Assembly: GCA_009861545.1 (NCBI GenBank)
Contig: VXME01000063.1
Location: 1 to 34,334 of the forward strand
Source: Acidobacteriota bacterium
GTDB taxonomy: Bacteria > Acidobacteriota > Vicinamibacteria > Vicinamibacterales > UBA8438
Length of the DNA stretch: 34,334 bases
Direction of reading: 5' to 3'
The translations under genes were made by a program, and so were the position numbers. This document shows positions 31,241 to 33,789 of this stretch, piece by piece. Positions within the stretch are counted from its first letter, which is position 1; the number at the start of each line of letters is the position of its first letter. The notes beneath the pieces were generated by a model. It searched no databases, was not told the origin of the DNA, and saw only the letters and a program-made list of their open reading frames with translations.

Positions 31241-32500
31241 CTACGTTCCCTGCCCGGCGGCGGCCAGCGCCGGTTCCGCCGACGGCGCGCCCGGCGCGCC
31301 GACCGGCCGCAGCATGCGCAGGCCGTTGAAGGTGACGAGCAGCGATGCGCCCATGTCGGCGGCCACCGCCATCCACAGGGTGGCGGCCCCGAAGACCATG
31401 AACGCGAGGAAGATCGCCTTGGCGCCGAGGGCGACGGTGATGTTCTCGATGATGATCCGCCGGGCGCGCCGCGCGTGGTTCACCACGAACGGGAGCTTCC
31501 GCAGGTCGTCCTGCATCAGCACGACGTCGGCCGACTCGGCCGCGATGTCGGTGGCGTTGCCGTCCATCGCGTTCACCGGCCGCAGCTCGCGCACTTCCGG
31601 CTCGCCGCGGGTGACGATGCCGGTCTTGTCGAACGCCACCGCGCGCAGGCGCCCGAGTTCCTCGAGGTGCGATCCGCCCTTGATCAGCACGCCGTGGCGC
31701 GTGGCCGACGTGATGGCGGCGGCAATCGTCACCGGCGTCGAGATCACGAGCCCGCACGGGCACGAGATCAGCAGGATGAGCATCGCCTGATAGAACCAGT
31801 GCTGCCAGTCGCCGCCGAGCAGCAGCGGCGGCGCCGTCCCGACCGCGAGGGCCACCGCGAACATCAGCGGCGTGTAGTAGCGCGCGAACCGGTCGATGAA
31901 GCGCTCGGTCGGCGCCCGGTGATGGTGGCTCTCGCGGACCATGCGGGTGATGCGGGCCAGCATCGTGTCCGATGCGGCCCGCGTGGTGCGCAGCTCGACC
32001 ATGCCGTGGGCGTTCACGGTTCCCGCGAACGAGCCGATGGCGTTGCGCGCCCGCCGCGCGCTCCAGTTCTCGATCAGCCCCGACAGCCCGTGGAGGAAGG
32101 CCAGCACCGCGGCCTCGGCCCACTCCGCCAGGAACAGGGCGGCGACGACCGACACCAGCACCAGTGCGCTCATGTCCGGCCGCAGGCGTACCAGCGAAGA
32201 CGCCGCCTTCCGCCCCGAGGGAAGGAGCCCGGCGACGATGCCGACGAGCAGCAGCACCGCCACGGACGGGTCGACGTGGTGCGCCCCGTGGTTGTGCGCC
32301 AGAAGGGTCTCGACCACGCCGCCCCCCGCCACCGCGACATGCAGGACGAAACCGGCGACGAGCGCGAGCCCGCTGGTTGCAACCAGCACACGCCGGAGCA
32401 CGGCGACCTCCTCGTTGCAGTCGAGGCCCTCGACGCGGTAGTCCAGTTCTTCGCGGATGCGTGCTCTCCTTGTGGCGGATCGACCTGACCCGCAATTCAT
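31241..32500 (-). CDS. Truncated heavy-metal P-type ATPase lacking actuator and nucleotide-binding domains
   Basis: A 419-residue relative of zinc/cadmium/lead-exporting P1B ATPases. Present: a degenerate HMA-like start ([15 protein letters not shown]), His-rich loop [20 protein letters not shown], the metal motif CPC (247-249), DKTGI (291-295; family DKTGT) and the end [15 protein letters not shown]. Absent: the actuator domain with TGE (expected between residues 158 and 159) and the nucleotide-binding domain plus GDGxND (expected at about 315-316). Both gaps are in frame and no stop intervenes, so ATP-driven transport is unlikely. The coordinates use the ATG at 32500; AAGGAG at 32471-32466 instead points to an ATC at 32458, giving MREELDYRV-like. 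It follows zur by 29 bases. Confidence 0.8.
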
Positions 32501-32529: not shown

Positions 32530-33036
32530 CTACGCCGCCCCGACTTTCGCGCACTGTGCACACATGCCCTCGACCTCGACCGTGCGACGTGTCGCGACAA
32601 ACCCGAGGGCGGCGGCATCCTCGGCAAGCAGTCCTCCGATCCGCGGATCCTCGAGCTCGACCGACGACCGGCAGCGGCTGCAGATGAAGAACAGGCAGTC
32701 GTGGTCGCGCTCGGGATGGACGCACGGGACGTAGGCGTTCAGGCTTTCGATCCTGGAAACGAGGCCCTGCCCCGTCAGGAACTCAAGCGCCCGGTACACC
32801 GTCGGCGGTCCGACCGGCCGCGAATCTGTGCGCGTGACCGCTTCGATCAACTCGTAGGCGCCCGTCGGCCGACCGCTCGCCCAAAGCAGTTCCAGGATGC
32901 GCCTCCGCATTGCCGTCATCTGTACGCCGCGCCCCTCGCAAATCGATACCGCGAGCGCGACCCGTTCGCGTGGCGAGTGCCGCCCACGGCAATCCGGATC
33001 GGTGCAGGGCCGGGGTCGGATCGACTGTTTGGTCAT
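32530..33036 (-). CDS. zur: Fur-family zinc uptake regulator (Zur-like)
   Basis: A 168-residue Fur-family repressor. The winged-helix core has the Zur-type string [20 protein letters not shown] and [12 protein letters not shown], followed by two structural CxxC pairs (ICSRC and MCAQC) and HDC/His residues for zinc sensing. An extra Cys/His-rich N-terminus ([10 protein letters not shown]) precedes the core. With zinc bound, Zur represses uptake and zinc-sparing genes. The ATG at 33036 has GACAGG upstream. It is divergent from folE, with a Zur-box-like palindrome between them, and probably forms an operon with the small P-type ATPase. Confidence 0.9.
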
Positions 33037-33064: not shown

Positions 33065-33082
33065 GCAATACTATAACATTGC
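33065..33082. promoter_or_regulatory. Zur-box-like palindrome in the zur/folE divergent promoter
   Basis: GCAATACTATAACATTGC reads the same on both strands at 14 of 18 positions, and its TATAACATT half matches the Zur-box half-site known from proteobacteria. TATAAC (33072-33077) could also be the -10 for folE with TTGCGG (33050-33055) 16 bases upstream, and TATAGT on the other strand a -10 for zur. A repressor here could control both directions. Confidence 0.55.
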
Positions 33083-33141: not shown

Positions 33142-33789
33142 ATGGACAGTGCAGTCGTCGAGCATCGAGCCTCGACCCCATCGCGCAACGCGTCGGAAGC
33201 GCTGCGTCGGCCGAGCCGCGCCGAGGCGGAGGCCGCCGTTCGCACGCTGATCGAGTGGGCCGGGGACGATCCCGACCGGGAGGGACTGAAGGGAACGCCC
33301 GACCGGGTCGTGCGGGCCTACGATGAATTCTTCGCCGGATACGCCGAAGACCCGGTCGCGTTGCTGGCCACGACCTTCGAGAAGCCCGCCTCCTATGACG
33401 AGATGATCGTCTTGCGCGACGTCCGCCTCGAGTCCCATTGCGAGCACCACATCGTTCCCATCCTGGGCAAGGCGCATATCGGTTATGTACCGACAGACCG
33501 CGTCGTCGGGAGCTCCAAGCTGGCGCGCCTCGTCGAGGTGTTCGCCAAGCGGATGCAGATCCAGGAGGCGCTGACGTCGCAGATCGCGGACACCATCCAG
33601 GAGGTGCTGGCGCCGCGCGGCGTCGGCGTCGTCATCGAGGCGGCGCACCAGTGCATGACCACACGCGGCATCCGCAAGCCGGGTGTCAGCATGGTCACCA
33701 GCCGCATGTTGGGATCGTTTCGCGACGACCGGACCACGCGGCAGGAGTTCCTGTCGACAATCCGTAGAGGCACTCTGCCGGAGAGCTGA
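33142..33789 (+). CDS. folE: GTP cyclohydrolase I (FolE)
   Basis: A 215-residue type I GTP cyclohydrolase, the zinc enzyme that converts GTP to 7,8-dihydroneopterin triphosphate for folate or queuosine precursors. Zinc ligands are the Cys and His of ESHCEHH and the Cys of HQCMTTRG. Other family blocks are [40 protein letters not shown] and [14 protein letters not shown]. The N-terminal 25 residues are a variable extension. It is divergent from zur. Zur control is familiar for the zinc-independent FolE2; here the gene encodes the zinc-requiring type. The ATG follows AAGGCCGGGAC. The PIG-L gene starts 14 bases after its stop. Confidence 0.96.

Follow-up and report, generated by a model that had tools for sequence, protein, structure and literature searches.

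A zinc ATPase gene reduced to its membrane half behind a zur-like gene, and a separate family of similar design in the Vicinamibacterales

P-type ATPases are textbook primary pumps, in which transport is tied to phosphorylation. One gene in the window (the whole stretch of DNA analyzed here, 34,334 nucleotides) raises the question of whether the membrane part of such a pump can persist as a working protein once its catalytic domains have gone, or whether what is left is a gene in decay. A sequence-only reading had described this gene, here called W, as a single open frame carrying the membrane helices, CPC, DKTG and terminal helices of a metal ATPase, and that description holds, with no stop codon and no frameshift in the frame. 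W matches profiles of Zn/Cd P1B ATPases, with scores that fall short of the curated cut-offs set for heavy-metal ATPases. The features of W are as follows.

31241 to 32500, minus strand: engine-less ZntA-like gene W, an open frame matching the Zn/Cd P1B ATPase model and 4UMV
32395 to 32396, minus strand: junction 1, 65 amino acids gone, most of the N-terminal HMA domain
32114 to 32116, minus strand: release-path Glu (E202 of Shigella ZntA), kept
32029 to 32030, minus strand: junction 2, 72 amino acids gone, the actuator domain with TGE
31754 to 31762, minus strand: CPC motif of the intramembrane zinc site, kept
31619 to 31630, minus strand: DKTG remnant
31570 to 31571, minus strand: junction 3, 194 amino acids gone, comprising the entire N domain and the greater part of the P domain, with GDGxND and SEHP
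31418 to 31420, minus strand: M5 Lys (K693 equivalent), kept
31355 to 31357, minus strand: M6 Asp (D714 equivalent), kept

The three junctions come from alignment of W to ten full-length relatives, and each gap is clean and in frame, with every membrane segment kept. The sequence-only reading had recognized two in-frame losses, of the actuator domain and of the P/N region; both are real, but the 65-amino-acid gap in the HMA domain had been missed, and the P/N junction, at 31571/31570, lies about 15 bases from the position first given. Of the HMA domain, only a GLDCNEE stub is left. The actuator domain with its TGE is absent. A complete P domain is no longer present, only its final helix and the strand that bears DKTG, and the N domain and GDGxND both fall inside the third gap. 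The junctions have no repeats and no meaningful microhomology. The DKTGI of W had been taken for a decayed DKTGT; this does not stand, since full-length relatives read DKTGI or DKTGV (DKTGT occurs in a few more distant ones), making DKTGI ancestral in the clade. By these alignments, W arose by three deletions from a full-length copy of a ZntA-type P1B ATPase and retains its membrane half. Because the phosphorylation, ATP-binding and dephosphorylation domains are lost, the domain content of W shows a protein unable to run an ATP-driven cycle.

The length of the protein depends on the start codon, with 419 amino acids if translation begins at ATG 32500 and 405 if it begins at ATC 32458. A Shine-Dalgarno-like aaggag lies 5' of the ATC, and full-length relatives have aaggag or a close variant at the same position, followed by ATC or ATT (ATG in G026). 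Since the stretch at ATG 32500 aligns with a conserved upstream element, the start of W is probably the ATC and not the ATG. In full-length ZntA relatives from the same bacterial family (L026, L033-L037, L012-L014, L017), the ATC or ATT is likewise a possible non-canonical start codon. An AlphaFold model of W, built on a shallow alignment, was poor (pLDDT 44) and uninformative.

What W retains is the intramembrane zinc site. Mapping onto Shigella ZntA places the CPC in M4, the Lys in M5, the Asp in M6 and the Glu on the release path, residues that have been described for ZntA and HMA4 (PMC6305203). Three further features lie next to W.

32530 to 33036, minus strand: Zur-like Fur-family regulator directly upstream of W (PF01475; best NCBIfam match Zur)
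33065 to 33082, no strand assigned: Zur-box-like imperfect palindrome GCAATACTATAACATTGC / GCAAYACTATAACATTGC in the zur-folE interval, with conservation across six related loci (L088, L089, L091-L094)
33142 to 33789, plus strand: folE, GTP cyclohydrolase I (PF01227), divergent from zur

The NCBIfam Zur match has an E value of 1.8e-28, under the curated cut-off of that model. W starts about 30-70 bases downstream of the Zur-like gene on the same strand, and this position, together with the conserved Zur-box-like site, supports the link to Zur that had been suggested from the sequence. When the zur-folE region was searched for palindromes, no inverted repeat came up, so the Zur box is called from conservation and resemblance. 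The zur-folE pair is also present in relatives, and in two of them (G026 and G011) a COG0523 GTPase stands behind zur where the window has W. The locus resembles known Zur/COG0523/FolE zinc-starvation clusters in its Zur-like regulator, Zur-box-like site and folE, but differs from them in having an engine-less ZntA in the place of the GTPase. In the sister genome G001, the flanks are colinear with the window (about 92% on both sides), and a MerC-like gene and other sequence occupy the place of W. The folE adjoining zur in that genome is broken into pieces (L088; G001:C141:55635-56187).

The origin of W was investigated with protein and DNA trees. In the protein tree, W is nested among full-length genes from the bacterial family to which it belongs (enclosing set, 99/99). 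The same genome has an intact paralogue, a 748-amino-acid frame on another contig (G000:C160) that is 76-89% identical to W over the main shared pieces; at the DNA level, the two are 86% identical in the tree comparison, a divergence of 14%. In the DNA tree, W groups with genes from another genus (G013 and G019, about 90% identical), not with its own paralogue. The full-length paralogue and the G013/G019 relatives share the start context of W and about 83-95% amino acid identity in the segments from the actuator remnant to DKTG and in M5-M6, against about 75-77% in the first helices; they differ from W in being about 735 amino acids long, in having all domains and in not lying beside zur. A plasmid search returned, among the matches listed, only partial and distant matches to full-length ATPases, covering a quarter of the query at about 67-69%.

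The reading that competes most closely with a functional W is that W is a recently dead, redundant ZntA copy being removed piecemeal, its frame open by chance, and this reading has a probability only slightly short of even. The intact paralogue would make such a copy redundant, and W is present in a single genome among those searched, with sister species lacking it. In one of these, G003, a scrambled ZntA remnant lies directly behind the MerC-like gene (L094:3507-3706; G003:C68) and consists of 53 bp identical to W plus 147 bp of inverted HMA-domain sequence; this remnant suggests that at least one sister species has lost the gene lineage to which W belongs. In another genus, where the COG0523 gene follows zur, a 49-bp ZntA fragment comes immediately after that gene (L090:7706-7752; G011:C490). 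The leftover HMA and P-domain fragments of W look vestigial, and after 0.05 neutral changes per site, a frame would still be free of stop codons with a probability of about 0.4. On the other side, deletions of the lengths seen in W, placed at random, would spare all membrane blocks in only about 0.17% of cases, and would in addition all be in frame with a probability of about 6e-5, both figures being post hoc calculations.

Codon models bear on both readings. With the W branch set against the rest of the W/full-length set, omega was 0.15 for W and 0.037 elsewhere (2dlnL 17.8), fourfold above a background of 0.037-0.044, and this relaxation is consistent with decay. A fully neutral W branch was nevertheless rejected (2dlnL 18.8). 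The relaxation is concentrated in the first helices, with an omega of 0.33 in the segment MA-M2, the highest value, where neutrality was not rejected. The core from M3 through M4 and the CPC is constrained (omega 0.043; neutrality rejected, 2dlnL 12.7), as is M5-M6 (omega 0.09; neutrality rejected, 2dlnL 6.5). Uniform decay fits worse: one common neutral phase was inferior to segment-specific phases (2dlnL 11.6, 2 df). The dN/dS check proposed with the sequence-only reading thus speaks for constraint on the core and for relaxation at the front. Interpretation is complicated since part of the constraint may be older than the deletions, and it therefore does not prove function. W is young, found once and under relaxed selection, and sits where a zinc-starvation gene is expected; whether it is functional or recently decayed is a call at roughly even odds.

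Stronger evidence that an engine-less pump can be a working protein came from a second family. The sequence-only reading had suggested a search for homologues with the same domain losses; the W copy was found in no other genome searched, but a separate sister family was. Searching 162 genomes of the order for matches to the family query over full or nearly full length yielded 19 loci (18-19 genomes) from one other bacterial family of the order, encoding proteins of about 420 amino acids that are 54-86% identical to the query. The membrane segments are kept, and every aligned member (18/18) matches the HMA and E1-E2_ATPase models and has the CPC, Lys, Asp and Glu of the zinc site, whereas none (0/18) matches the Hydrolase (P/N) model PF00702. 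Both DKTG and TGE are absent from all 18. The HMA domain is kept, with an MDC in 18/18 members and His runs in 10/18. A predicted structure (pLDDT 77.9) matches P1B ATPases, among them 7QBZ (Z 20.5) and 4UMW (Z 16.4 over 295 residues). Purifying selection on the family is strong, with an omega of 0.054 within one genus, similar to the W/full-length background.

The sister family is the older of the two cases, monophyletic (100/100) and separate from W. Membership of W in it was considered and is rejected by the tree, in which W belongs with full-length genes from within its bacterial family, and this topology shows separate origins for the two engine-less architectures. On the sequence evidence, the sister family is near certain to be functional, and its conservation demonstrates that, even with no engine attached, the membrane domain of a ZntA-type pump can form a stable protein under selection; it suggests that engine-less pumps can be working proteins and not broken ones. 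Of recent decay and a preserved ATP-independent protein, two of the outcomes that the sequence-only reading had offered, the second is therefore strongly supported in the sister lineage, while for W itself the two are about equally likely.

A wider scan used one genome per species for 84,980 species, and the best 79 loci were classified. Sixty carry DKTG or TGE and 18 are domain-less (all of L097-L114), with one (L128) left unassigned. Most records of the 18 domain-less loci bear the names of Acidobacteria MAGs, including one of Vicinamibacterales; a few carry titles from other phyla (e.g. L101, L102), and L102 matches G051, a genome of the order, in the sequences compared. Matches from Zixiibacteriota and Myxococcota look contiguous, but they carry DKTG and TGE and were rejected as domain-less forms. 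Among 396 genomes sampled across the phylum, no engine-less form was found beyond the sister family and W; one candidate in this sample, G330, was rejected because its match sits in a 747-amino-acid frame.

Mechanistically, the engine-less proteins can be compared with Shigella ZntA (a P1B-2 Zn2+/Cd2+/Pb2+ ATPase; 4UMV/4UMW). They resemble it in the membrane helices, CPC, M5 Lys, M6 Asp and release-path Glu, and the sister family also in the HMA domain. They differ from it in being without actuator, phosphorylation and nucleotide-binding domains, and no phosphoenzyme is possible. Since loss of the engine left the helices, the zinc site and the Glu of the release path in place, an ATP-independent conduit is the most likely mechanism. 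Zn2+ or a similar divalent ion would be bound and moved without ATP, down its electrochemical gradient, and a flow driven by the membrane potential would run inward. For W, a position behind zur would fit a zinc-starvation module. As the simplest mechanism we infer a conduit driven by the gradient, with a sensor or buffer as the main alternative. Taken as a whole, the reading of W as a zntA-type membrane half whose engine-less design serves ATP-independent binding and movement of Zn2+ is the best explanation, held tentatively and at a little less than even confidence.

A role other than transport, with the engine-less proteins sensing or buffering zinc or acting as regulatory partners (e.g., subunits pairing with full-length ZntA), is rather unlikely. 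It is consistent with the presence of full-length P-type ATPases in every family-bearing genome tested, and with the MDC of the HMA domain and the His runs in the sister family. Two observations weigh against it: the release-path Glu and M5 Lys, expected to matter for ion movement, are invariant in the sister family, and the neighborhoods revealed no obvious metal-related partner gene linked to it. These neighborhoods comprise 20 loci, including two genomes counted under two locus names. The locus is conserved: a gene for an AhpC/TSA-type peroxiredoxin adjoins the family in 15 of the 20, and a protein of about 1000 amino acids is encoded upstream in 18. At L027:7986-8447, the peroxiredoxin gene overlaps the start of the sister-family gene.

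Archaea are known to have stand-alone soluble phosphatases that resemble P-type ATPases, which makes a split ATPase, with a separate soluble protein supplying the missing domains, conceivable, but the idea is largely refuted: searches of 13 genomes with the P/N domains found no soluble partner, the matches lying almost only in ORFs of 610-1145 amino acids, the size of complete pumps, and the one short ORF (134 amino acids, G051) matching weakly over just 54 residues. An assembly collapse, suggested earlier and conceivable where the window is an entire contig (C63) of a 6.35-Mb genome in 174 contigs, is very improbable given the divergence of W from its only close paralogue, its repeat-free junctions and the colinearity of both flanks with a sister species.

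No description of engine-less P-type ATPases was found in the open-access papers searched, and the passages searched in a review devoted to unanswered questions about P-type ATPases (PMC10654040) showed no such form. We consider it possible, at slightly under an even chance, that P1B zinc pumps became ATP-independent conduits or sensors at least twice independently, by clean loss of the catalytic domains, and that one such family has become fixed and is conserved across several Vicinamibacterales genera. If this is true, annotation that names any CPC-bearing match a metal-translocating ATPase mislabels some proteins. CFTR is a comparable natural test case for ABC transporters. A conserved membrane-only family with an intact metal site would provide a natural test of what the membrane part of a P-type ATPase does by itself, be it as a channel, a carrier or a sensor.
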